Of a stretch of 64,000 nt of DNA, positions 2,195 through 20,707 are shown piece after piece. The stretch covers positions 1-64,000 of the forward strand of contig NZ_WPCC01000005.1 in NCBI RefSeq assembly GCF_009741925.1. Direction: 5' to 3'. A model generated the notes under the pieces. It did not search any database, was not told the origin of the DNA, and was given only the letters and a program-made list of their open reading frames with translations. The stretch is from Natronomonas sp. CBA1123 (GTDB lineage: Archaea; Halobacteriota; Halobacteria; Halobacteriales; Haloarculaceae). Each line of letters begins with the position of its first letter. Within the stretch, counting starts at the first letter, position 1. The position numbers and the translations under genes are program-made.

Positions 2195-2989
2195 TCAGCC
2201 GCGATGCGGGAGGAACGCGACCGCACCGAGGAGGAACGCCGCACCGAAACAGTAGACGATGATGTACGTGAGACTCGACATGCGCGTGTCGAAGTAGTCC
2301 TGATTGTCGAGGTCGGCTTGATACCCCTCGACGTCGGTCGACAACACGAGCGTGTCGCCGCCGCGGAACGTCGAGACGTACTGCGTTCCGCCGAGTTCCG
2401 TGGTGTCGCCCTCGGCGAACTCGATGGACTGCGTGGACGTTTCCTCCCACGTGAGGACCGCCTCCGAGGCGGTGACGTTGTCGACGGTCTTCGAGGTGTT
2501 CGCGTGTTGTATCGTATCGCCGACGGCGAAGCTCTCGCGGTTCGGTTCGGGGAGGTACTCGTCGACTGGCTGAGTCGTCCCGTTGCGGTAGCGGACGAAC
2601 TCGGTGCCGTCGTCGGCCGTGTAGGTGGTGTTGTCCACCTCTGGGTCGTTTTCGAGCAGCGTCGGCACGTCGAACTCCTCGACGAGCGTGAAGGACTGCT
2701 CGCCCGCGGCCGTCGTGACGTTGTACTCGCCGCCGTCGTACTCGACGACGGAGTTGTTGGCGAACGTCGTCTGTCCTTGGCTCGTTTGGCTGTATTCGGC
2801 GGTTGCACTCCCGTTCGACACTTCGGTGAACGTGTACGTCGTGCCGCCGAACTCGACGGTGTCTCCCTGTTGGAAGGTGTCCCCTTCGACATCGATAGTC
2901 GGTTCCTCGGCCACCGCCATCACCGAATAGGAGCTGGCGGCCATGACGAGGAAGAAGGCGATGTATATCGCCGCCCATCGTCGTTGCAT
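2195..2989 (-). CDS. Conserved haloarchaeal membrane-anchored extracellular protein
   Basis: A 264-residue protein with an N-terminal hydrophobic segment (residues 6-25), a roughly 200-residue polar, acidic exterior domain rich in Thr, Val and Gly, and a second transmembrane segment near residues 238-258 ending in LPHRG. The exterior part repeats short beta-strand-like motifs such as GDTVEFGGTTYTFTEV and DTTELGGTQYVSTF, suggesting duplicated small beta domains. It contains several N-x-S/T sites. I do not recognise a characterised family. It is probably a cell-surface protein with both ends at the membrane. Confidence 0.75.
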   Translation of the reverse strand: MQRRWAAIYIAFFLVMAASSYSVMAVAEEPTIDVEGDTFQQGDTVEFGGTTYTFTEVSNGSATAEYSQTSQGQTTFANNSVVEYDGGEYNVTTAAGEQSFTLVEEFDVPTLLENDPEVDNTTYTADDGTEFVRYRNGTTQPVDEYLPEPNRESFAVGDTIQHANTSKTVDNVTASEAVLTWEETSTQSIEFAEGDTTELGGTQYVSTFRGGDTLVLSTDVEGYQADLDNQDYFDTRMSSLTYIIVYCFGAAFLLGAVAFLPHRG

Positions 2990-3169: not shown

Positions 3170-4263
3170 ATGAGCCAGAGACGACAACTGAGTGCGACGT
3201 TGCTCTCCATCGCCGTCGTCGCGACGATGGTCGGGAGCGTCGTGCTGTTCGGCGCGGCTGTCGCGCCAGCTGCTGCGAGCGACCACACGAAAGACGAAGC
3301 CGAAGACCTCACCGAGCAGTCCGACTTCGAGGTCGTCTTGCCGTACTCGACGGACCACTACCCCGGCGACCAGAACGAAGCCAACGGTAGCATCGAGTAC
3401 TACGCCTCGGGCGGCGACGCCTTCGGCGAAGTTGGAGCAGAAGAGGGGCTGTGGATTGATTACGTCATTATCGACGCCCAGTGGATAGATTACTCCAACT
3501 GCGACGTCTCGAACACGAAGGCCTTCGGCATCGACCGCGGCAACAACAACGACGGAACCCAGACCGACGTCGACCTCGTCCAGAAACAGAAGAACGTCAA
3601 CTTCCGGGACGACGGCATCACCATCGAGATTTACGACTTCAGCGACTTCGCCGGCGACCCGGCGTACATGGCCCCCGAAGACGCCATCGTCGCCGCCCAA
3701 GGCGCCGGCTCACAATCCGGCACCTGCCTGACGATGACGAGCGAACCCGGCTGGTATCAGGTGCAAGGGTTCCTCAACGGCACCGTCGCCGACAACGGCC
3801 CCGACGAAGAGCCCTCCGAGAACGCCGACGAAGTCGGCTTCAAACTGAACTCGAACTACCTCTACGTCTGTGACTGCGACAGCGAACAGGAGGCTCGCGA
3901 ACAGCTCGGCCCGCCGCCGAACGAGGACACCCAGTCTACGGCGACGCCGGAGCCGACCGCAACGCCCGAACCGACTCCGACACCCGACGACACGTCCGAA
4001 TCGACGGCGACACCGGAACCGACCGCAACGCCGGAACCAACCGCAACGCCCGACACCTCGGACTCGGAGGACACCCCCCCCCGAGCCGACCGACGCACCC
4101 GACACGCCACAGCCAACCGACGCGCCGCAGAACACCGCAACGCAGTCCGACGATAGCGGGACGGGCATGACCGCCGACCGCCGGCGCCGGCCCCGGCTTC
4201 GGTCCCGCTGTCGCTGTCCTCGCGTTGCTCGCCAGCGCCCTCGCCGTCATCCGGCGCAGATAA
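3170..4263 (+). pseudogene. P1: surface protein of the P1-P5 family, frameshifted before its PGF-CTERM anchor
   Basis: Starts at ATG 3170 with a signal peptide (cleavage near APAAASDH), then the P-family domain: DHYPGDQNEANGSIEYY, WIDYVIIDAQWIDYSNC, KAFGIDRGNNN, GTCLTMTSEPGWYQ and YLYVCDCDSEQEAREQLG, followed by a Thr/Pro/Glu stalk. A run of nine C (4074-4082) has one C more than the frame needs; reading through it gives an Arg-rich tail stopping at 4156. A second extra base near 4169-4172 is also needed to recover the anchor GPGFGPAVAVLALLASAL and its RRR tail, stopping at 4263. As written, the product would lack the archaeosortase signal and be released rather than anchored. P2-P4 are intact, so this is either a decayed copy, a phase-variable copy or sequence error. 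Confidence 0.8.
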
Positions 4264-4367
4264 ACACCCCCCGTTTTCCGGTTTCTACCGGACATTAACA
4301 ATAATTATAAACCCCAGTGAATAGCCAGCAACAGCGTTAGGAGCGGTGATTCTGCAGTCGTACCTAC

Positions 4368-5468
4368 ATGCACAGCGCAAGGCAGACAGCCGCGACGGTG
4401 CTGGCGACGTTCGTCGTCGTGTCGATGGTCGCAATCGGGGCGACCGCCGGCGCCGTCGCCGCCGACGAACACACGAAAGACGAAGCGCCGAACTTCGACG
4501 ACAAGGCGAACTTCACGATAAATCTCCCGTTCACGACGGACCACTACCCCGGCGACCAAAACCAGCAGAACGGCAGTATCGAGTACTTCGCCTCGGGGGC
4601 GGAAGCCTACGAGGCACAAGGCGCCGAGGAGGGACTGTGGATTGACTACGTCATCATCGACGCCGACTGGATTGACTACTCTGCCTGTTCGACATCGAAC
4701 ACGAAGGCGTTCGGTATCGACCGCGGCAACAACAACAGCGGGACCAACATCGACGAGGACCTCGTCGAACACCAGGTCCGGACGAACTTCCGCGACGACG
4801 GCATCACGATTGACATGTACGACTGGAGCGAGTTCGCGAACGACCCGCCGTATCTCGCCGCCGAGGACGCCATCGTCGCCGCACAGGGCGCTGGTTCGAA
4901 CGACGGACCCTGCCTGACGATGACGAGCGAACCCGGCTGGTACCAGATTCAGGGCTTTCTCAACGGCAGTATCGCGACCGGCTGCACCGAGGAGGGCAAT
5001 CCCGACTGTGAGCCAGAAGACAAGGAGTTCGTCGGCGTGAACGTCAACTCGAACTACGTCTACGTCTGTGAGTGTGAGAACGAACAGGAGGCTCGCGAGC
5101 AACTCGGCCCGCCGCCGGGAGAAGAGCCCGACCCGACGCCGACCCCCACGGAGAGCGGCGAATCGACGCCGACGCCGACCGAGGCATCCGACAGTACTCC
5201 GGAACCGACCGAACCGCCGGAATCCACTCCGGAACCGACCGACCCACCGGACGATACGCCACAACCCACTGACCCGCCCGAAAGCACCACTGCACCCACC
5301 GCAACCCAGTCCAACAGCGGCGGTGGAGGTGGCGGGGGCGGCGGCAACAACGCAGGTGGTGGCAACACCGGCATGACACCCACATCTGGTGGCGGCCCCG
5401 GCTTCGGCCCCGCCGTCGCCATCCTCGCACTCCTCGGCAGCGCGCTGCTCGCCAACCGACGGCGATAA
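4368..5468 (+). CDS. P2: PGF-CTERM-anchored surface protein of the P1-P5 family
   Basis: A 366-residue exported protein. Residues 1-32 are a signal peptide; the family domain follows with HYPGDQNQQNGSIEYF, WIDYVIIDADWIDYSAC, GPCLTMTSEPGWYQIQGF and YVYVCECENEQEAREQLG. Unlike its paralogs it has an extra Cys pair in ATGCTEEGNPDCEPED. A Thr/Pro/Glu stalk and a run of nine Gly lead to the tripartite anchor GPGFGPAVAILALLGSALL with RRR at the end, the PGF-CTERM signal processed by archaeosortase A in haloarchaea. A TATA-like ATTATAAAC lies at about 4303-4312. The function of the domain is unknown. Confidence 0.88.
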   Translation: MHSARQTAATVLATFVVVSMVAIGATAGAVAADEHTKDEAPNFDDKANFTINLPFTTDHYPGDQNQQNGSIEYFASGAEAYEAQGAEEGLWIDYVIIDADWIDYSACSTSNTKAFGIDRGNNNSGTNIDEDLVEHQVRTNFRDDGITIDMYDWSEFANDPPYLAAEDAIVAAQGAGSNDGPCLTMTSEPGWYQIQGFLNGSIATGCTEEGNPDCEPEDKEFVGVNVNSNYVYVCECENEQEAREQLGPPPGEEPDPTPTPTESGESTPTPTEASDSTPEPTEPPESTPEPTDPPDDTPQPTDPPESTTAPTATQSNSGGGGGGGGGNNAGGGNTGMTPTSGGGPGFGPAVAILALLGSALLANRRR

Positions 5469-5587
5469 CCCGTCATTCTGTTTTCTTCCGTTTATTTAGC
5501 GGTTCGTTCACCATCGCCGTGCGTGGTATAAACACCCGAATATGACTGGCATCAGGGATAAGAAAGTCGTGCCCCCCGTTGCCTCCG

Positions 5588-6703
5588 ATGGGACCCGCTA
5601 ATCGACAACGAATCGCGACCCTGTTGTCCATCGCACTGATTACGTCGATGGTCGCCGGGGTCACGCTGTTCGCCGCGGCCGCTGCGCCGGCGGCGGCACA
5701 GGACAGCGTCACGAGAGACGAGGCACCGGACAAGACGGATGCCGCGAACTTCACGGTCAATCTCCCCTTCGCGACCGACCACTACCCCGGTGACCAGAAC
5801 GAACAGAACGGTAGTATCGAGTACTACGCCATCGGTTCACAGGCGTTCTCCGACCTCGATGCGGAGGAAGGCGTTTGGATGAACTACATCATCATCGACG
5901 CCCAGTGGATTGACTACTCCGCCTGCGACATCCCGAACACGAAGGCCTTCGGTCTCGACCGAGACAGCAGTCTTCCCGGCACCCAGTTCGACGAGGACCT
6001 CGTCCAGAAGCAGCGGAACACGAACTTCCTCGACGACGGTATCGAAATCAAGTTCTACGACTTCAGCGACTTCGCCGGTGACCCGCCGTACATGGCCCCC
6101 GAGGACCAAGTCGTCGCCGCCCAGGGCGCCGGCTCGCAGGACGGCACCTGTCTGACGATGACGAGCGAACCCGGCTGGTACCGCCTGCAGGCGTTCCTCA
6201 ACGGCACCGTCGCCGACAACGGCCCCGACGAAGAACCCTCCGACAGCGCCGAAGAAGTCGGCCTGAAACTCCAGTCGAACTACATCTACGTCTGTGAGTG
6301 TGACAGCGAATCCGAAGCCCGCGAACAACTCGGCCCGCCGCCGAACGAGCCCGACGATAACGGCGGCTCCGAATCCACGCCCGAACCAACCGCGACGCCC
6401 GAATCCACGCCGACGCCGACGGAGGCGCCAGACAGTACTCCGGAACCGACCGAACCGCCGGAATCCACTCCGGAACCGACCGACCCACCGGACGACACGC
6501 CACAACCCACTGACCCGCCCGAAAGCACGACGGCACCCACCGCAACCCAGTCCAACAACGGCGGTGGCGGAGGCGGCGGCAACGACGGCGGTGGCGGCAA
6601 CACCGGTATGACACCTACATCCGGCGAAGGCCCCGGATTCGGCCCCGCCGTCGCCATCCTCGCACTCCTCGGCAGCGCGCTGCTCGCCAACCGACGGCGA
6701 TAA
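5588..6703 (+). CDS. P3: PGF-CTERM-anchored surface protein of the P1-P5 family
   Basis: I take the ATG at 5588 as start rather than the TTG nine bases earlier, because the signal peptide then begins with a short basic segment (MGPANRQR) and ends near APAAAQDS. The 371-residue product has the same domain as P2 and P4 (DHYPGDQNEQNGSIEYY, QWIDYSACDIPNTKAFG, DGTCLTMTSEPGWYRLQ, VCECDSESEAREQLG), a Thr/Pro stalk, a Gly-rich run and the PGF-CTERM anchor GPGFGPAVAILALLGSALL plus RRR. The stalk and anchor are nearly identical in DNA to those of P2 although the domains have diverged. It is probably lipid-anchored outside the cell after archaeosortase processing. Confidence 0.88.
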   Translation: MGPANRQRIATLLSIALITSMVAGVTLFAAAAAPAAAQDSVTRDEAPDKTDAANFTVNLPFATDHYPGDQNEQNGSIEYYAIGSQAFSDLDAEEGVWMNYIIIDAQWIDYSACDIPNTKAFGLDRDSSLPGTQFDEDLVQKQRNTNFLDDGIEIKFYDFSDFAGDPPYMAPEDQVVAAQGAGSQDGTCLTMTSEPGWYRLQAFLNGTVADNGPDEEPSDSAEEVGLKLQSNYIYVCECDSESEAREQLGPPPNEPDDNGGSESTPEPTATPESTPTPTEAPDSTPEPTEPPESTPEPTDPPDDTPQPTDPPESTTAPTATQSNNGGGGGGGNDGGGGNTGMTPTSGEGPGFGPAVAILALLGSALLANRRR

Positions 6704-6832
6704 CCCGACCATTACTGGTTTTATTGCGCCGCATATCCGGGTCAAGCGCCCGGTTCCCCGCCGCGGGGGATATAAACTGCCTCGAATACCCTGCAATACG
6801 GTTAGCGTCAAGTCGGTACAGTGTTCCCACGA

Positions 6833-7900
6833 ATGCGTAGACAGAGACGTGCAACGTCGCTTGCAGTCCTCGTCATCGCGGGGACGCTTGCCGGCGTTTC
6901 GGTTCTCACTGTCCCAGCGACCCCCGTCGCTGCGGACGAACACACCAAAGACCAGGCAGCGAACTTCGACGGACAGGCGAATCTCACGGTGAACTTCCCG
7001 TATGCGACCGACCACTACCCCGGCGACCGAAACGAGGCCAACGGCAGCATCGAGTACTTCGCCTCGGGCGCGGAGGCCTTCAAGGAACTCGACGCCGAGG
7101 AGGGCGTCTTCCTCGATTACGTCATCATCGACGCCCAGTGGATAGATTACTCCAACTGCGATATTCCGAACACGAAGGCTTTCGGCATCGACCGCGGCGG
7201 CAACAACCCCGGAACGCAGGTCGATGTCGACCTCGTCCAGAAACAGAAGAACGTCGACTTCCGGGACGACGGCATCACCATCAATCTCTACGACTTCAGC
7301 GACTTCGCGGGGGACCCGCCGTACATGGCCGCCGAAGATGCCATCGTCGCCGCACAGGGCGCCGGCTCGCAGGACGGCACCTGCCTGACGGTGACGAGCG
7401 AACCCGGCTGGTATCAGATTCAGGGCTTTCTCAACGGCACCGTCGCCGACAACGGCCCCGACGAAGAGCCATCGTCCAACGCGCGCGAGGCGGGCGTGAA
7501 CGTGAACTCGAACTACCTCTACGTCTGTGAGTGTGACAGCGAATCCGAAGCCCGCGAACAGCTCGGTCCGCCGCCGGGGGAGGAACCGCAGTCCACGGCG
7601 ACACCGGAACCGACCGCAACGCCCGAATCGACGCCGACACCGACGGAAGCCCCCGACAACACCGCAACACCCGAACCCACCGAACCGCCCGAGAACACAC
7701 CCGAGCCGACCGACGCACCCGACACGCCCCAACCTACCGACCCACCGGAGCGGACAGCGGCACCGACAGCGACCCAATCCGACACCGGCGGTAACGGCGG
7801 CACCGGCATGACGCCGACTGCCGGCGCCGGACCCGGGTTCGGTGCCGTCCTCGCCGTGTTCGCGTTGCTCGCCAGCGCGCTACTCGCCCGGCGAACGTAG
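6833..7900 (+). CDS. P4: PGF-CTERM-anchored surface protein of the P1-P5 family
   Basis: The ATG at 6833 gives a typical signal peptide (MRRQRRATSLAVLVIAGTL, cleavage near PVAADEH); a GTG at 6821 is a possible alternative. The 355-residue protein carries the family domain with Cys in DYSNCDIPNTKAFG, DGTCLTVTSEPGWYQ and YVCECDSESEAREQLG. Its stalk of TPEPT-type repeats lacks the long Gly run of P2 and P3, and the anchor is GPGFGAVLAVFALLASALL with a short ARRT tail. A TATA-like GATATAAAC is at about 6768-6776. It is the last member before the ABC transporter genes, 161 nt upstream of the binding-protein start. Confidence 0.88.
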   Translation: MRRQRRATSLAVLVIAGTLAGVSVLTVPATPVAADEHTKDQAANFDGQANLTVNFPYATDHYPGDRNEANGSIEYFASGAEAFKELDAEEGVFLDYVIIDAQWIDYSNCDIPNTKAFGIDRGGNNPGTQVDVDLVQKQKNVDFRDDGITINLYDFSDFAGDPPYMAAEDAIVAAQGAGSQDGTCLTVTSEPGWYQIQGFLNGTVADNGPDEEPSSNAREAGVNVNSNYLYVCECDSESEAREQLGPPPGEEPQSTATPEPTATPESTPTPTEAPDNTATPEPTEPPENTPEPTDAPDTPQPTDPPERTAAPTATQSDTGGNGGTGMTPTAGAGPGFGAVLAVFALLASALLARRT

Positions 7901-8061
7901 CGCCACACGGCCGAACGAACTCGCCGTCTGCACGGAGCTTTTTCATCGGATTTGACAGTTCTGCCGTCATGAACGGGCCGGTGATTCGCCGTATCCGTCT
8001 TAAACGGCCGGACAACACCAGCACAACACACATTTGCACCTGTTAAATATTGAGGACACAC

Positions 8062-9525
8062 ATGGCAGACCTGCCAGCTAACGAACAGAGTGATGAAGAA
8101 GACGGGCGCCTCGACAGGCGTTCGATACTGAAGTACGGAGGGGCCGGCGCGCTGACCGCCGGGCTCGCCGGCTGTCAGTCGCCGCAGAACCCCGCACCCG
8201 GGTTCCCGTTCCGCGGACAGGAAGAGCCACCTGACGAAGACGACGACGGAACCGGCGAAACCGGAAACAGCGACGGCGCTCTCTCGGGAGAGACCCTGAA
8301 CGTCGGCGTCCTCGCGCCGATGAACCTCCCGCTCGGGCGGTCGATGTGGAACGGTGCCCGACAGGCGGCGGAGGAACTGAACAACAACGGTGGCATCCTC
8401 GGTGCCACGGTCAACGTCAAACTCGGTAACACAGAAGTGTCGCCGGGGAAGGCCCAATCCGAGCACCGACGACTCGTCCTGCAGGAGAACTGCGATATGA
8501 CCTGTGGCATCTTCCTCGGGTCGGCGCTGCTGCAGACGCTTCCGTCTATCGCCAACCAGGAGACCGTCCACATCACCAGCGCCTCGGCCGACCCCCGCGC
8601 CGGGAAGTTGGTCTCGAAGACCAACGACGACATCACCGGCGAGGGCGGGGAGAACGAGTACGAGCGATTCAAGTACCACTTCCGTGCCGGACCGCTGCAC
8701 CTGCTCGATCTCGCCGACGCGATGTTGGAGTTCGTCGAGGCGAACAAAGAGGAGTACGGTTGGGAGAAGGCCGCGCTGCTGACCGAGAACCTCGGTGAGT
8801 TCACGCCGTACGCCGACCGACTCGGGAACCGCCTCAGCGACGTCATCGAGGTCCCCGTTTCGGAACGGCCGGGCGGCGTCAGTGACTGGTCGCCGCTGTT
8901 CAACGAAATCGAGGACAACGACTGCGACGTGGCCATCGTCGGGATGGCACTCATCGGCACCACCGCGGTCAACCAGTGGGCCCAACAGGAGCGTGACTTC
9001 GAGTTCGGCGGCATCCACGTCCCCAGCCAGGCGTTCAGTTACTGGGAGTCCACCGGCGGCAACGTCGAACACGTGTTCACGATGAACGCGATGACGCCCC
9101 AGACCTCGAACACCGAACAGACGCAGCCGTTCGTCGAGGCCTACCGCGAGAAGTGGGACTCGGTGCCCATCTACAGCGGGGCGCTGACCTACGACGTGAT
9201 TACCCTCGCCGAACAGGCGATTACCGCCGCCGTCGAGGGTGAGGACCTCGAAGAGATTCCGGACAGCAACACGCTGATTCCGTACCTCGAGGACGGGACG
9301 TTCACCGGCAGTACGGTGCTCAGCGAGTTCCAGTTCACGCCCGCGGACGCAACGTACGCCCACGAGCCACAGTGGACGTCCATCGAGGAGACGGGTGTGC
9401 CCGTCTTCCAGCAGTGGCAGAAGGACCCCGAGGTCCGGGAGGACTACGGGACGATGCACTCCTTTGCACCGCCACAGAACAAGAGCGCGGACAAAACGAT
9501 TCCAGACTGGGTGAGTAGTAACTAA
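8062..9525 (+). CDS. ABC transporter solute-binding lipoprotein, branched-chain amino acid/amide type
   Basis: I chose the ATG at 8062, preceded by a GAGG element, over a TTG at 8050. The N-terminus has a twin-arginine signal and lipobox (DRRSILKYGG then GLAGC near residue 43), so it is exported folded and lipid-anchored. After an acidic linker the periplasmic-binding fold type I begins (LNVGVLAPMNLPLGRSMWNG, LNNNGGILGATVNV), as in LivJ/LivK and amide/urea receptors. Its stop overlaps the start of the permease gene by one base. The ligand cannot be read from sequence. Confidence 0.93.
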   Translation: MADLPANEQSDEEDGRLDRRSILKYGGAGALTAGLAGCQSPQNPAPGFPFRGQEEPPDEDDDGTGETGNSDGALSGETLNVGVLAPMNLPLGRSMWNGARQAAEELNNNGGILGATVNVKLGNTEVSPGKAQSEHRRLVLQENCDMTCGIFLGSALLQTLPSIANQETVHITSASADPRAGKLVSKTNDDITGEGGENEYERFKYHFRAGPLHLLDLADAMLEFVEANKEEYGWEKAALLTENLGEFTPYADRLGNRLSDVIEVPVSERPGGVSDWSPLFNEIEDNDCDVAIVGMALIGTTAVNQWAQQERDFEFGGIHVPSQAFSYWESTGGNVEHVFTMNAMTPQTSNTEQTQPFVEAYREKWDSVPIYSGALTYDVITLAEQAITAAVEGEDLEEIPDSNTLIPYLEDGTFTGSTVLSEFQFTPADATYAHEPQWTSIEETGVPVFQQWQKDPEVREDYGTMHSFAPPQNKSADKTIPDWVSSN

Positions 9526-10397
9526 TGGTTCTAGATACGATACTCTCGGCAACGTTCATCAGCGCACTGTACGCCGTCATCGCCATCGGCTTTACCCTCA
9601 TCTTCGGCGTCGGTGGCATCCTGAACTTCGCCCACGGAGGGTTCATCACGCTCGGCGCGTTCAGTGCGTACATCGCCTCCGGATACTTCGGATTACCCAT
9701 CTTCGTTGGCCTCTTGGCCGGCACGCTCGTCGGCGCTGCCGTCGGCGGCGCGACGTACATGGGCGTCATCCGATACGTCCGGACGCGCCCGGTGACGATT
9801 CTGATTCTCACGTTCGTCATCGGCTTCTTCATGATGTACTTCGTCCGGGTGTTCGGCCGTGAAATCCTGAAAATCGACCCGCTCAACATCCCGGTCGACC
9901 CCGTCATCGGTTCGAGCAGTTTCGGAAACGACGTGTTCATCTTCGCCACGTCGTGGCTGCTCATCGGCGCGCTGTTCTACTTCGTCAACTACACGCGGAC
10001 GGGGCGCGCCATCATCGCGGTCAGCATGAGCGACAAGGGCGCCTCGCTCGTCGGCATCGACTCCGAGCGCATCAATCTGATTACGTGGGTGCTTGCGGGC
10101 GCCTTCGCCGGCTACGCCGGCGTGTTGCTCGCCGGGAGCCTCGGCGGCGGGTCCTGGCTCATGTCCATCGAACCGCCGGCACCGCTGGTGCTGTCGTTCG
10201 CTATCGTCATTTTGGGTGGGCTCGGCTCCATCAAGGGTAGCGTCGTCGGCGCCTACATCATCGGCTTCTTCGAGACGTTCACGGTCACGTTCGCACCGGG
10301 CGGCTCACAGCTCGCGGGCATCTCCTCGCTCGTCCTGTTGCTCGTGTTCCTGCTCGTGAAGCCCGAAGGACTGTTCGGACGGGAGGCTGCAGAATAA
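9525..10397 (+). CDS. livH: Branched-chain amino acid-type ABC permease LivH
   Basis: A 290-residue hydrophobic protein with about eight membrane segments, starting TLIFGVGGILNFAHGGFITLG, the N-terminal signature of the LivH/UrtB permease family. The C-terminal region has the coupling segment AIVILGGLGSIKGSVVGAYI and ends VLLLVFLLVKPEGLFGREA, again typical. The start codon shares a base with the stop of the binding-protein gene (TAATG), so the two are translationally coupled. It should form the heterodimeric membrane channel with the next gene's product. Confidence 0.95.
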   Translation: MVLDTILSATFISALYAVIAIGFTLIFGVGGILNFAHGGFITLGAFSAYIASGYFGLPIFVGLLAGTLVGAAVGGATYMGVIRYVRTRPVTILILTFVIGFFMMYFVRVFGREILKIDPLNIPVDPVIGSSSFGNDVFIFATSWLLIGALFYFVNYTRTGRAIIAVSMSDKGASLVGIDSERINLITWVLAGAFAGYAGVLLAGSLGGGSWLMSIEPPAPLVLSFAIVILGGLGSIKGSVVGAYIIGFFETFTVTFAPGGSQLAGISSLVLLLVFLLVKPEGLFGREAAE

Positions 10398-10399
10398 CA

Positions 10400-11626
10400 A
10401 TGGCTACGAAAACACCTTTCGAAGGCAACACCAAGGAACGGCGCCGCGAGGCGGTCAAAGAGAAACTCCAGTTCAGCGAGCTGACGCTCCGACACCGAAT
10501 CGGTGTGTACGCGATCGTGCTGCTGGGGCTGTTCCCGGTGTTCCTGACGCCGTTGGAACTCGACGCCTTCCGACCCGTGTTGTTCTTCATGATGTTCGCG
10601 ATGAGTTGGGACGTCGTCTCCGGGTACACCGGCCAACTCAGTTTCGGTCACGCGTTCTTCTTCGCCATCGGCGGCTACGGAAGTGCAGTGGTGACGACAC
10701 AGCACGGCCTTCCCGTCATCGTCGGCATCGTGCTGGCGACCGTGGTTGCGGCGCTCGGCGGACTGCTCATCGGTATCCCCGCGCTGCGACTCGAGGGGCC
10801 GTACCTCTCGCTCGTCACCCTCATCGCGCCGCTGTTGCTGTACCAGACGTTCATCCTGTTCAGCGAGAACCTGCCGCTGTTCGCCCCGCAGGGCCTCGGT
10901 GGGACCGGCGGGCTTCCAACCCAGCCACCTCAAATCGTCGGCTTCGCACAGGACGCGCTGGTGACGGTGAGCGGCAACATGTCGTGGGCGCTCGGGCGGT
11001 ACTACACCGCCTTCGCCGCGTTCCTCATCGTGTTGTCCGTCTGCTACGCCGTGACTCGTTCCTCCGCCGGAACGGTGTTCACCGCGATTCGTGAAGACGA
11101 GAACGCGGTGCGCTCCTCGGGACTCAACCCTGCGAAGTTCAAAATCTTCGCGTTCGTCCTCGCGGGCGCAGTCGGCGGCTTCGCCGGAGCGATGTTCGTC
11201 CACGCCGGCGGCTTCCCGAACACCGAGAACCTGCTCGGCCCCGGCCGAATCGACCTCAGCATTCAGGTCATCATCATGGCGATTATCGGCGGCATGGGGA
11301 CCATCGTCGGCGCGGTCGCTGGTGCGCTCCTGTTCGCGCTGACGACCGAAGTCGTCAACGCGCTCACGTTCACGATTCCGCTTCTCGGCATCGAGTTCGC
11401 CGCGCTGGACCCGCTTCCGACGTTCCTGCTCGCCATGCTGGTGTTGGTGTATCTCCCCGACGGCGTCGTGCCCGAGGCGATTCGGCGCGGCCGTCGGATG
11501 CGGGCACGCTACCGCGGCGAGGAGGTGCCCGAACCGGAACCGACCGGCGGGAACTCACCCGTCCAGAGTACCATCCAGAAGTACCGCGAAGAAATCAACG
11601 ACATCATCGGACGTGATAACCAATGA
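10400..11626 (+). CDS. livM: Branched-chain amino acid-type ABC permease LivM
   Basis: A 408-residue membrane protein whose central part carries the LivM/UrtC hallmarks SWDVVSGYTGQLSFGHAFFF and AIREDENAVRSSGLNPAKFK, and the coupling region MAIIGGMGTIVGAVAGALLF. The N-terminal 40 residues are charged and cytoplasmic, and the C-terminus has an extra 50-residue polar tail after the last membrane segment. It starts 2 nt after LivH and overlaps LivG by 4 nt (ATGA). It is the second half of the import channel. Confidence 0.95.
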   Translation: MATKTPFEGNTKERRREAVKEKLQFSELTLRHRIGVYAIVLLGLFPVFLTPLELDAFRPVLFFMMFAMSWDVVSGYTGQLSFGHAFFFAIGGYGSAVVTTQHGLPVIVGIVLATVVAALGGLLIGIPALRLEGPYLSLVTLIAPLLLYQTFILFSENLPLFAPQGLGGTGGLPTQPPQIVGFAQDALVTVSGNMSWALGRYYTAFAAFLIVLSVCYAVTRSSAGTVFTAIREDENAVRSSGLNPAKFKIFAFVLAGAVGGFAGAMFVHAGGFPNTENLLGPGRIDLSIQVIIMAIIGGMGTIVGAVAGALLFALTTEVVNALTFTIPLLGIEFAALDPLPTFLLAMLVLVYLPDGVVPEAIRRGRRMRARYRGEEVPEPEPTGGNSPVQSTIQKYREEINDIIGRDNQ

Positions 11627-12411
11627 GCACTGACAGCGGACGAGCCGAAGTCGAAAACCGCTCGTACGGCCCCGACGACGGCATCCTCGTCGCCAACGAC
11701 CTGCGGAAGGAATTCGGCGGTCTCGTAGCAGTCGACGACCTCTCCTTTGCGGTTCAGGAGGGCGAAATTCTCGGGTTCATCGGCCCGAACGGCGCCGGGA
11801 AGTCGACGACGTTCAACTCCGTCACGGGGACGTATCCGCCGACCGACGGCACCGTCTACTTCAAAGGCGAAGACGTGACCGGCATCCCCGCCCACGAGAT
11901 GGTCAAAAAGGGGATGGCCCGGACGTTCCAGGAGTTCGCCCCACTCGAAGACCGCACCGTCGTCAAGAACATCGAACTCGCACTCGCGCCCGACGAACTG
12001 TTCACGCTTGCGGGTGTCGGCGGCGAGAGCGAAGCCCTCGCTACCGAAATCGCAAAACGCGTCGGGTTGGGTGACGTTCTCGACCAGACGCCATCCGAGC
12101 TTCCGCACGCCGGGATGTTGAAACTGGAGTTGGGTCGAGCGATTGCGACTCAACCCGACGTGATGTTGGTCGACGAGCCCTTCGCCGGCCTCTCCGGGAA
12201 GGAGGTTCAGGAACTCTCGGAAGTGATGGAGTCGCTCCGACAGCACGGCATGACGCTCATCGTCGTCGACCACAACATGCGTGGCCTGTTGAACCTCATC
12301 GACCGAGCGTTCGTCATCCAGTTCGGGTCGAAAATCGCGGAGGGAGACCCGGATGAAATCAAGAACGACCCGAAGGTTCAAGAGGCTTACCTGGGTGGTG
12401 ATGAGATATGA
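11623..12411 (+). CDS. livG: ABC transporter ATPase LivG with a divergent signature motif
   Basis: A 262-residue ATPase subunit. Walker A is GPNGAGKST near residue 60, Walker B is [11 protein letters not shown], and the switch His is in IVVDHNMRG. Where LivG proteins usually have LSYGQQ-type signature residues, this one has [15 protein letters not shown], so the normal Ser-Gly-Gln core is missing, whereas LivF keeps a canonical motif. The C-terminus ([14 protein letters not shown]) is the typical LivG ending. It overlaps LivM and LivF by 4 nt on each side (ATGA), indicating tight coupling. Confidence 0.93.
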
Positions 12412-13181
12412 GTGCGGATAGCACGGACGACTTCGAAAGCGAATTCCAACCCGCCACGGACACCCAACCGACGCCCGACGCGGTGCTCGAGGCCGAAGAC
12501 CTCTCGGTGTCCTACGGGAAGGTCCAGGCGCTGCGTGGGTTGGACCTTACCGTTCGAGAGGGCGAAATCGTCTCGCTCATCGGCCCGAACGGTGCCGGCA
12601 AGACTACCTTCGCCAACACTGCCTCCGGGTTCCTGCCGTACGACGGTAGCGTCCGCTACCGGGACCAGGAGGTCTCCAGCGTCGGCCAGACCGCGCTGGT
12701 CGAACAGGGCATGATTCACTGCACCGAGAAACGGGACCTCTTCGGGTACATGGACGTCGAGGACAACCTCGAGTTGGGCGGCTACCTGCAGGACGACGCC
12801 GTCATCGAAGAGCGCAAGGAGTTCGTCTACGACCTGTTCCCGCGACTCGACGAGCGCCGCGAGCAGAACGCCCGTTCGATGTCCGGCGGCGAACAGCAGA
12901 TGCTCGCCATCGGGCGTGCGCTGATGGGCGACCCAGACCTGCTCATCCTCGACGAGCCGACGCTGGGACTCGCACCCGTCATCCTGAAGGACATCGCCGA
13001 GGCCTTCGACCCGATTCAAGAACAGGGCGTCACCATCATGCTCACCGAACAGAACGTGACGTTCGCACTGAAACACGCCGACCGCATCTACCTGCTCGAG
13101 AACGGCGACGTCGTCCGTGAAGGGACGCCCGGCGAGCTGAAAGGCGACGACTACATCCGCGAATCCTACCTCGGCGGGTAA
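12408..13181 (+). CDS. livF: ABC transporter ATPase LivF
   Basis: A 257-residue ATPase subunit with Walker A GPNGAGKTT near residue 63, the signature SMSGGEQQMLAIGRAL, Walker B LLILDEPTLGLAP and the C-terminal ending DDYIRESYLGG, all typical of LivF. It would pair with LivG to power import through LivHM. The first 28 residues are an acidic extension common in haloarchaeal proteins. It closes the transporter operon; P5 follows 87 nt later with its own promoter-like element. Confidence 0.95.
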   Translation: MSADSTDDFESEFQPATDTQPTPDAVLEAEDLSVSYGKVQALRGLDLTVREGEIVSLIGPNGAGKTTFANTASGFLPYDGSVRYRDQEVSSVGQTALVEQGMIHCTEKRDLFGYMDVEDNLELGGYLQDDAVIEERKEFVYDLFPRLDERREQNARSMSGGEQQMLAIGRALMGDPDLLILDEPTLGLAPVILKDIAEAFDPIQEQGVTIMLTEQNVTFALKHADRIYLLENGDVVREGTPGELKGDDYIRESYLGG

Positions 13182-13268
13182 CTCCGTCTTCGGGGTCGAG
13201 ACATCGCGGCGAAGAATAAACCACCAACTGTCGAAACGTTTTATCCGCTCCGTTGACAGAGTTCGCTA

Positions 13269-14204
13269 ATGAAGCACGAATCGACACTTGCCCTCCTTCT
13301 CGTCGTCGTGTGCTCCCTTTGGCTGTTGCCCGCCGGCGTCGGTGCCAACCACGGCGGCAGTCCGACCGATTTCACCACGACGCCGAGCGACCGTACGCCC
13401 AGTGCCAACGGAACGAGCTATCTACTGTCGGCGGAGTTGACCGAGAAGTTCGATAGCTCACCCTCCCTCGCGTATCCCGACCGAATCGTGTTCCAAATCG
13501 AGGACGCAAACTTGAACAACTGCGAGCCGTTCGGCCTCGAGCAGGAAAACTACCGACTCGGCGTGAACAAATCGACGGAGAGCGGCTACCAGTTCCAGGC
13601 GTACGAAGTCCAGGGTGCCACGTGGGACGGCAGCGCCGTCGAGTTCCAGTTCGACACCGAAGACCAACCGAACTACGGACAGGGTGACAAACTGGAACTC
13701 GAACTGCAGGGCTGTGTGTCGAACGCCGACTCGGAGGGGTGGTACCAGTCGGCCGTGCTCGTCGATGGGAAATCCCGGACCGACCGGAACGTCAGTTTCA
13801 CCGACCAGTCACACTACTTCGGGCTCTGTGAGGGCTGTGAGAGCGACGACGACGCGCGGCAGGAACTCGGCCCGGCACCGTCGGACCCGACGCCGACTCC
13901 GGAGCCAACGCCGACGGCAACGCCGGAACCGACCGACACACCGACACCGGCACCGACGCCACAACCGACAGCGACACCGGAGCCGACCGCCCCAGCCACC
14001 GCACAACCGACGGCGACGGCGCAGCCGACGGACACTGCGACACCCAAGGCCACACGGACACCGACGCCGACCGAAGCCGAGAGCGGACCAAACGACGGCC
14101 CACCGTCGGCGTCGACCGTCTTCGGCGTCGACCCGCTCGCCGTCGTCGGTGCCGTCGCCGTCGTCTCCATCGCGCTCGCGGCGCTCGGCGCTCGACGGTT
14201 ATGA
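13269..14204 (+). CDS. P5: divergent member of the surface-protein family, stalk plus C-terminal membrane anchor
   Basis: A 311-residue exported protein with a signal peptide ending near GVGANHGG. Overall similarity to P1-P4 is low, but the framework is the same: NNCEPFGLEQ matches the first conserved Cys region, QGCVSNADSEGWYQ the second, and YFGLCEGCESDDDARQELG the third, where CxxC replaces CxC. A long Thr/Pro/Ala stalk leads to a C-terminal membrane segment (DPLAVVGAVAVVSIALAAL, then GARRL) without a clear PGF motif. GTTTTATCC about 28 nt before the ATG looks like the TATA box of a leaderless transcript. It ends 2 nt before the convergent tRNA-Cys. Confidence 0.82.
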   Translation: MKHESTLALLLVVVCSLWLLPAGVGANHGGSPTDFTTTPSDRTPSANGTSYLLSAELTEKFDSSPSLAYPDRIVFQIEDANLNNCEPFGLEQENYRLGVNKSTESGYQFQAYEVQGATWDGSAVEFQFDTEDQPNYGQGDKLELELQGCVSNADSEGWYQSAVLVDGKSRTDRNVSFTDQSHYFGLCEGCESDDDARQELGPAPSDPTPTPEPTPTATPEPTDTPTPAPTPQPTATPEPTAPATAQPTATAQPTDTATPKATRTPTPTEAESGPNDGPPSASTVFGVDPLAVVGAVAVVSIALAALGARRL

Positions 14205-14206
14205 AA

Positions 14207-14282
14207 AGCCAAGGGCCGGATTTGAACCGGCGTAGAGCTGCTCTGCAGGCAACCGCGTAAGGCCAGACTCTGCCACCTTGGC
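14207..14282 (-). tRNA. tRNA-Cys (GCA)
   Basis: The minus strand folds as a 76-nt tRNA: acceptor GCCAAGG pairs with CCTTGGC, discriminator T, T-arm GCCGG-TTCAAAT-CCGGC, and anticodon stem GTTGC/GCAGC enclosing loop CTGCAGA with anticodon GCA. CCA is not encoded. In many haloarchaea this tRNA directly follows 5S rRNA; here an acyl-CoA dehydrogenase gene lies between them. Confidence 0.95.
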
Positions 14283-15695: not shown

Positions 15696-15708
15696 GGTTG
15701 AATGAATG

Positions 15709-15830
15709 GTAGGCGGCGAACCAGATTTCCCAGAGACTCTCGTACTCCAGTACTCGCTGGAACGCTGGCGGGCTTATCTTCCGTGTTCGGGATGGGTACG
15801 GGAGTCGCCCCGCCGCTATGGCCGCCTTAA
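15709..15830 (-). rRNA. 5S ribosomal RNA
   Basis: About 122 nt on the minus strand, beginning TTAAGGCGGCCATAGCGG and ending GCCGCCTACC, with the conserved CCCGTACCCATCCCGAACAC segment. The terminal ten bases pair to close helix I. Exact ends are estimated from the haloarchaeal consensus. Confidence 0.95.
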
Positions 15831-15888
15831 CGCCGACTCGTGGAGTCGAACCACGATAACGCAACCGTGCGTCGGTGGTGAATTCCGT

Positions 15889-15935
15889 ATGTACGTGCGA
15901 TCCAGTTTACGCCCGGACCCGCTTCATCGGGCGGA
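15889..15935 (-). other. 23S rRNA processing stem, 3' half
   Basis: This stretch is complementary to 18871-18921 on the other side of 23S: TGTACGTGCGATCCAG matches CTGGATCGCACGTACA, and GGACCCGCTTCATCGGG matches the complement of CCCGATGAAACGGGTCC with one change. In archaea such stems form the bulge-helix-bulge cut by the splicing endonuclease (EndA is encoded at 37244-38251). Confidence 0.8.
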
Positions 15936-15937
15936 GC

Positions 15938-18858
<2,921 letters not shown>

Positions 18859-18870
18859 TAATGATAGATC

Positions 18871-18921
18871 GCTCATAAACCCGATGAAACGGGTCCAGTG
18901 AGCGTCTGGATCGCACGTACA
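18871..18921 (-). other. 23S rRNA processing stem, 5' half
   Basis: Complement of 15889-15935 as described for the 3' half; together they enclose pre-23S rRNA. It lies between tRNA-Ala and mature 23S. Confidence 0.8.
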
Positions 18922-19066
18922 CACGGTCTCATACACACCCTGCTGACAACAGGGAGCGTCCACCCTTCCCACTCGCGTTTGCACGGAGTGGTGCATCGGT
19001 TCTTCGTACCCAGACGAATCACCGTTTCCCACTTAAGGGACACGGTTCGAAGTCGGGTACGTGAGA

Positions 19067-19138
19067 TGGACCCACTGGGATTCGAACCCAGGGCATCCTC
19101 CTTGCAAAGGAGGCACTCTACCACTGAGCTATGGGCCC
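19067..19138 (-). tRNA. tRNA-Ala (TGC) in the 16S-23S spacer
   Basis: A 72-nt tRNA on the minus strand with acceptor GGGCCCA pairing with TGGGTCC, T-arm CTGGG-TTCGAAT-CCCAG, and anticodon stem CCTCC/GGAGG around TTTGCAA, anticodon TGC. CCA is not encoded. This is the usual spacer tRNA of haloarchaeal rRNA operons. Confidence 0.97.
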
Positions 19139-19143
19139 TACCA

Positions 19144-19177
19144 TTAGCCTTGACAGTTCAAAGGTGCTCGGTCGGTC
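19144..19177 (-). other. 16S rRNA processing stem, 3' half
   Basis: TTAGCCTTGACAGTTC and CTCGGTCGGTC here pair with GAACTGCCAAGGCTAA and GACCGACCGAG at 20801-20834, forming the long stem around pre-16S rRNA that is cut during maturation. Confidence 0.75.
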
Positions 19178-19241
19178 ACCGTCGACGAACGTCGATAGAC
19201 GCCAAAGGTGGGTCGGGGACAACGCCCCGATCCCGATCAGT

Positions 19242-20707
<1,466 letters not shown>

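Follow-up and report, generated by a model that had tools for sequence, protein, structure and literature searches.

The 64-kb window analyzed here, i.e. the whole stretch of DNA under study (contig C40 of the Natronomonas sp. CBA1123 genome, 3.45 Mb in 89 contigs), carries at positions 3170–14204 a block composed of four related genes termed P1–P4, a Liv-type ATP-binding cassette (ABC) importer and a fifth related gene, P5, with every gene on the + strand (Table 1). The initial annotation, made from the sequence alone, described five paralogous open reading frames (ORFs) that encode one common exported domain with four shared cysteine positions, followed by a Thr/Pro-rich stalk, and comparison of P1–P5 bore out all these features. 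P1–P4 are mutually 66–78% identical, P5 exhibits 24–28% identity to them, and the paralogy is far above chance (E-values down to 1e-160). P1–P5 constitute an undescribed family of exported, membrane-tethered surface proteins, with the location on the cell surface being predicted.

The P proteins and the adjacent importer

The P domain (~180–215 residues) extends from the signal peptide to the conserved end 'C.C..E.EAREQLGPP'. Comparison of 44 members of the family shows conserved positions (C75, C150, the GWY motif, Y194, C198/C200 and glycines) that are structural in kind, and the one nearly invariant acidic residue, D135, is isolated. Cysteines 3 and 4 are lost jointly in three members that retain cysteines 1 and 2, which suggests two pairs, C1–C2 and C3–C4. 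Sequence searches of Pfam, NCBIfam and the PDB revealed no match to the P domain apart from the tail; in Pfam at E ≤ 1, P1–P4 matched nothing except PGF-CTERM, and P5 gave a sub-threshold match to DUF4589 only. The earlier statement that the domain belongs to no characterised family holds for these three databases, but very distant kin were identified in other haloarchaea. Our first model (A2) implied a nearly genus-restricted family, while the broader model A7 added two genera and the distant kin. The 44-member profile yielded weak matches in 18 other genomes (E-values 1e-8 to 1e-4, over ~130 of 192 positions), where some of the called ORFs are open-ended or run along the incorrect strand. 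Several of these matches are beta-rich exported domains with the signature 'GIDRGDD..GT..D', some of them beside DUF7282. Such haloarchaeal domains, which often adjoin DUF7282 and sub-threshold matches to DUF2808, have the GIDRG...GT..D stretch in common with the P domain, but they possess neither the conserved cysteines nor the GWY and CxC motifs, and the similarity covers only a part of the domain. On this weak similarity, the P domain, with its four cysteines, appears to have branched off from a broader haloarchaeal beta-domain. The structure models, built from 13 sequences, are all-beta and of low confidence (P4: predicted local distance difference test, pLDDT, 45; P5: pLDDT 55, predicted template modelling score, pTM, 0.55), and the fold may be a beta-sandwich. 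The fold search with the P5 model returned immunoglobulin (Ig)-like surface domains (UafA, ClfB, SpaD) and a DUF4466 protein with Z-scores up to 7.5, i.e. at a common level, below the meaningful one, and these matches were not taken as a sign of kinship. Glycosylation sequons are no commoner in the P proteins than in shuffled sequences.

The C-terminal anchor, originally assigned to all five proteins, was found in P2, P3 and P4, which score above the TIGR04126 and PF18204 (PGF-CTERM) cut-offs and end in a PGF motif, a hydrophobic helix and a basic terminus. Substrates of archaeosortase A (ArtA) are lipid-anchored, and their PGF-CTERM tail is tripartite (PMC7157517); the tails shared by P2–P4 are thereby predicted to serve as archaeosortase-dependent lipid anchors, although a tail of this type carries no information on the role of the P domain. 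P5 falls below the PGF-CTERM cut-offs and ends instead in another membrane tail (FG.DP..VV...A..SI..A..GA.RL), kept in its orthologs. In P1 the anchor is out of frame because of two +1 frameshifts in the stalk, one within a C9 run, the sole G/C run of at least 8 in the window, and one near position 4165. The P1 orthologs of N. gomsonensis and of genome G292 (loci L091 and L115) are intact. A sixth P copy, on contig C5 (L018:8142–9280), has its stalk shifted twice as well, and its two orthologs are also intact. These shifts represent either sequencing errors or real frameshifts, and the C9 run of P1 may be a site of phase variation or may result from a sequencing error.

The complete importer reported between P4 and P5 was corroborated by Pfam: the receptor matches PF13458, the two permeases PF02653, and the two ATPases PF00005, with PF12399 on LivG. 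The receptor leader, RRSILKYGGAGALTAGLAGC, resembles those of lipoproteins exported by the twin-arginine translocation (Tat) pathway, with an RR...LAGC Tat/lipobox. The genes overlap or almost abut and follow the canonical LivHMGF order, so that the system has the same five parts as the LivHMGF/urea-type (HAAT) importers. It differs from them in that its receptor subfamily is confined to three genera and scores below every substrate-specific cut-off (24.5 vs 494.8 bits for the archaeal urea receptor, 13 vs 477 for PRK15404). With scores this far short of the cut-offs for LivJ- and UrtA-type receptors, it is not assigned to transport of branched-chain amino acids or urea. In related Liv operons of other genera, which lack P genes, livF is followed by an AMP-binding acyl-CoA-synthetase-like gene (PF00501) in 4 of 4 cases tested (L136, L138, L142, L143), and genes of similar size follow livF at other Liv loci of other genera; because of these genes in the relatives of the operon, we speculate that the substrate is perhaps a carboxylic acid.

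Conservation of the P–Liv neighbourhood

N. gomsonensis carries orthologs of the block in identical order (P domains 83–92% and Liv proteins 93–99% identical). Each of the 12 testable receptors of the subfamily with linked permeases is clustered with a P gene (Natronomonas, 10; two related genera, g78 and g80, one each). The number of five P genes proved to be local, as in relatives between one and six of them are located at the Liv locus, with further copies elsewhere. Genomes G287, G292, G293, G294 and G295 exhibit a P array in front of the Liv operon and an ortholog of P5 behind it, with a Rce1-like gene between livF and P5 in G294 and G295; in G296, G297 and G299 the P5 ortholog was the only P gene found at the Liv locus, and the contig of G303 is too short to judge. 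In g78 and g80 the P genes lie, as in the window, between a membrane protein and the receptor, even though the receptors with this conserved neighbourhood are only 46% identical; no P5 was found at these two loci, and the common strand noted for the window does not extend to them, since their P genes are inverted.

A second cluster in the same genome, on contig C78 (L017:8074–13231), comprises a P gene, LivM (on the opposite strand), a receptor and LivH, with no ATPase genes seen nearby. Its receptor is 38% and its P domain 21–29% identical to those of the window, and the adjacency of P and receptor has a chance probability of ~0.008. The usual absence of such a partner from Liv operons was corroborated at other loci: the contigs that carry the remaining 6 Liv receptors of this genome contain no P homolog, and 9 Liv loci of other genera (receptors ~35% identical) have neither P nor any PGF-tailed or stalk protein next to them.

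The profile search proposed in the initial annotation was carried out on 391 genomes of Halobacteria (86 genera). Strong P matches and the receptor subfamily (>460 bits; next-best receptor 327 bits) occur in the identical 7 genomes (five Natronomonas, one g78, one g80), and the neighbourhood recurs in all three genera. Fisher's exact test gives p = 4e-15 for this co-occurrence, uncorrected for relatedness. Within Natronomonas, P genes are present in 11 of 20 genomes; a receptor of >670 bits accompanies them in 10 of these 11 and is found in none of the 9 genomes without P, which have no P copy at any locus either.

The block is bordered upstream by a membrane protein without a Pfam family, which is absent from the P-less Natronomonas; it occurs in 249 of 391 haloarchaeal genomes, and such a wide distribution led us to reject it as a part of the module. 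Downstream, the block is bordered by tRNA-Cys in the window and in g78. Past this tRNA and an acyl-CoA-dehydrogenase-like gene, the window contains a complete rRNA operon (small-subunit rRNA, tRNA-Ala, large-subunit rRNA and 5S rRNA) at 15708–20707 on the - strand.

Table 1. Coordinates of the P–Liv block and of its borders in the 64-kb window
Feature	Position	Strand	Remarks
Membrane protein at block border	2195..2989	-	common in haloarchaea; adjoins P also in g78 and g80
TATA-like box of P1	3102..3107	+	TATAAG
P1, exported P-domain protein	3170..4263	+	domain 3278–3916; in-frame ORF end 4156; out-of-frame PGF-type anchor about 4165–4263
C9 run at first P1 frameshift	4074..4082	+
TATA-like box of P2	4306..4311	+	TATAAA
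P2	4368..5468	+	P domain 4464–5114, Thr/Pro stalk, PGF-CTERM
TATA-like box of P3	5527..5532	+	TATAAA
P3	5588..6703	+	P domain 5699–6340, stalk, PGF-CTERM
TATA-like box of P4	6771..6776	+	TATAAA
P4	6833..7900	+	P domain 6935–7573, stalk, PGF-CTERM
Liv-type receptor	8062..9525	+	ATG start; Peripla_BP_6, Tat/lipobox leader
LivH-type permease	9525..10397	+	BPD_transp_2
LivM-type permease	10400..11626	+	BPD_transp_2
LivG-type ATPase	11623..12411	+	ABC ATPase
LivF-type ATPase	12408..13181	+	ABC ATPase
P5	13269..14204	+	divergent P domain 13347–13877, stalk, conserved non-PGF membrane tail
tRNA-Cys, downstream block border	14207..14282	-

Possible roles as importer partners or general surface proteins

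The first reading of the locus was partly confirmed, and the link to the importer that it proposed is partly supported. Judging from sequence and gene order, we tentatively favor the possibility that the P branch adjacent to the Liv operon comprises accessory surface partners of this one subfamily of Liv-type importers. According to this scenario, the P domains would be held on their stalks at the cell surface, near the lipoprotein receptor, and would bind the substrate or a carrier of the substrate; the receptor would then take over the substrate and pass it to LivHM/LivGF. The P proteins may in this way contribute to capture, processing or shielding of the substrate, as the initial annotation supposed.

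Several observations weigh against such a partnership and bring forward an explanation that we regard as nearly as likely, namely that the P proteins belong to the general complement of surface or S-layer-associated proteins and take no part in import, and that their linkage to Liv reflects a block inherited whole, with one gain or loss per lineage. In the P-less Natronomonas the creatininase–L10e gene pair is kept, and the adjoining membrane protein, the P genes and the Liv genes are all missing (for two of the nine, the contig end is too close for a judgement). In three P-less species tRNA-Cys follows within ~1.3–3 kb, and the stretch separating it from L10e contains other genes or no clear ones. 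The most plausible view of the block is that of a single unit, inherited at one site and gained or lost as a whole; therefore, the co-occurrence is weaker as evidence of function, and inherited synteny in the single L10e/tRNA-Cys slot could explain much of the linkage. The presence of P and receptor within Natronomonas maps to a single branch of the L10e + creatininase tree (support 70/97), and since the genomes are related and one branch splits P-bearing from P-less species, few events effectively underlie this distribution. Integration of the block as an island at tRNA-Cys was also considered and is unsupported, as no direct repeat of the tRNA-Cys end was found within the block.

The gene arrangement and the phylogeny of the family point in the same direction. 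P1–P4 have individual TATA-like boxes ~50–70 bases upstream of the start, and P5 is preceded by a TTTAT box ~29 bases upstream of its ATG, a spacing compatible with a leaderless transcript; judged by these sequence features, P1–P5 seem to be transcribed separately and not as a part of the Liv operon. In g78 and g80 the P genes point away from the operon, a second receptor of the subfamily in g80 has neither permeases nor P, and genome G298 (72% complete) combines P genes with a distant receptor only. P genes widespread without a transporter would, according to the initial annotation, speak against the link; strong P matches are restricted to the 7 genomes given above, yet about half of the P copies are not linked to a Liv importer. 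In several species of three genera, one sub-branch is consistently found next to an aldo/keto reductase (L019, L133, L130, L151, L189, L186), with an ABC-2 exporter and/or a HVO_0513-type helix-turn-helix regulator close by, and another branch adjoins SecD/SecF-like genes in Natronomonas (L154, L147). Importers of other types were sought beside the unlinked copies, and the transport-like neighbours found were the ABC-2 exporter and SecDF, with no importers among them. In the P tree, the upstream Liv-linked genes of three genera group together in a single clade that also includes dispersed copies (95/95), P5 forms a separate clade, the P genes of the aldo/keto reductase loci stand apart, and the long-branched C78 copy has no firm place. 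Because the branches sit at several unlike loci and are separated by the tree, the P domain appears to be a general surface module, of which only one part of the family accompanies the importer. In addition, no ligand-binding site was found in the P domain, and the fold models are weak.

A purely general surface role is at odds, on the other hand, with three observations. The C78 cluster pairs a diverged P with a diverged receptor outside the L10e/tRNA-Cys slot; P-less species lack every P copy, those of other loci included, as well as the receptor; and the neighbourhood persists in the genera with diverged receptors and inverted P genes. Of these, the C78 cluster and the joint absence of all unlinked copies are not accounted for by the slot alone.

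Also in favor of the partnership, protein sequence divergence between close species is greater for the P domains and the receptor than for the permeases and ATPases, as would be expected of exposed proteins. Synonymous divergence between the window and N. gomsonensis reaches 0.58 for P1 and 0.74 for P2 (Liv genes: 0.09–0.26), and some P alleles exhibit 2–3 times the synonymous divergence of neighbouring genes; such unusually high values between some pairs suggest an exchange of alleles at P1 and P2. This pattern, together with the presence of one to six copies per locus, would fit variable surface proteins acting against or with viruses, as receptors, decoys or shields, whose copy number and allele exchange result from virus pressure. 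A precedent comes from a study of Halorubrum, according to which an S-layer component triggers pleolipovirus fusion (PMC8875312). We nevertheless consider a viral role improbable, as the P genes are under purifying selection throughout (ratio of nonsynonymous to synonymous divergence, dN/dS, 0.09–0.23), a pattern-based search of viral contigs revealed no P homolog, and such a role would not account for the association with a single receptor subfamily. Even less probable, to the point of being very doubtful, is the possibility that the P proteins are surface enzymes releasing the substrate of the importer: all of them are exported and they are encoded beside the receptor, but the positions conserved among the 44 members comprise no catalytic set, with D135 standing alone, and no enzyme family was matched in Pfam or NCBIfam.

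Comparison with anchored-receptor systems

To our knowledge, Liv-type importers are a class without known anchored surface partners. The closest functional analogy to the partnership favored here is the Isd/NEAT system of Gram-positive bacteria, in which heme is taken up by an ABC importer whose lipoprotein receptor is assisted by several sortase-anchored Ig-like beta domains on the cell surface. NEAT proteins are secreted or surface-associated, often carry sortase motifs and exhibit an Ig-like fold (PMC4143258). The likeness, which is functional only, consists in the anchored beta domains (predicted in the case of P) beside an importer with a lipoprotein receptor. In contrast to the Isd/NEAT system, the P proteins exhibit no NEAT match, the importer is of the Liv rather than the heme type, and the tails are archaeosortase-dependent or membrane ones. 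Should the analogy hold, which we regard as unlikely, the P proteins would form an archaeal equivalent of the anchored-receptor relay of Gram-positive bacteria, with several stalked, lipid-anchored four-cysteine beta domains binding a nutrient at the cell surface and handing it to a Liv lipoprotein receptor.

The analysis defines a lineage-restricted family with an undescribed domain, present in up to ~10 copies per genome in a part of Natronomonas and in two related genera. Little is known of the way in which nutrients cross the glycoprotein S-layer of haloarchaea and reach the importers, and a P family that accompanies one importer subfamily across genera provides a concrete case in which this question can be tested.

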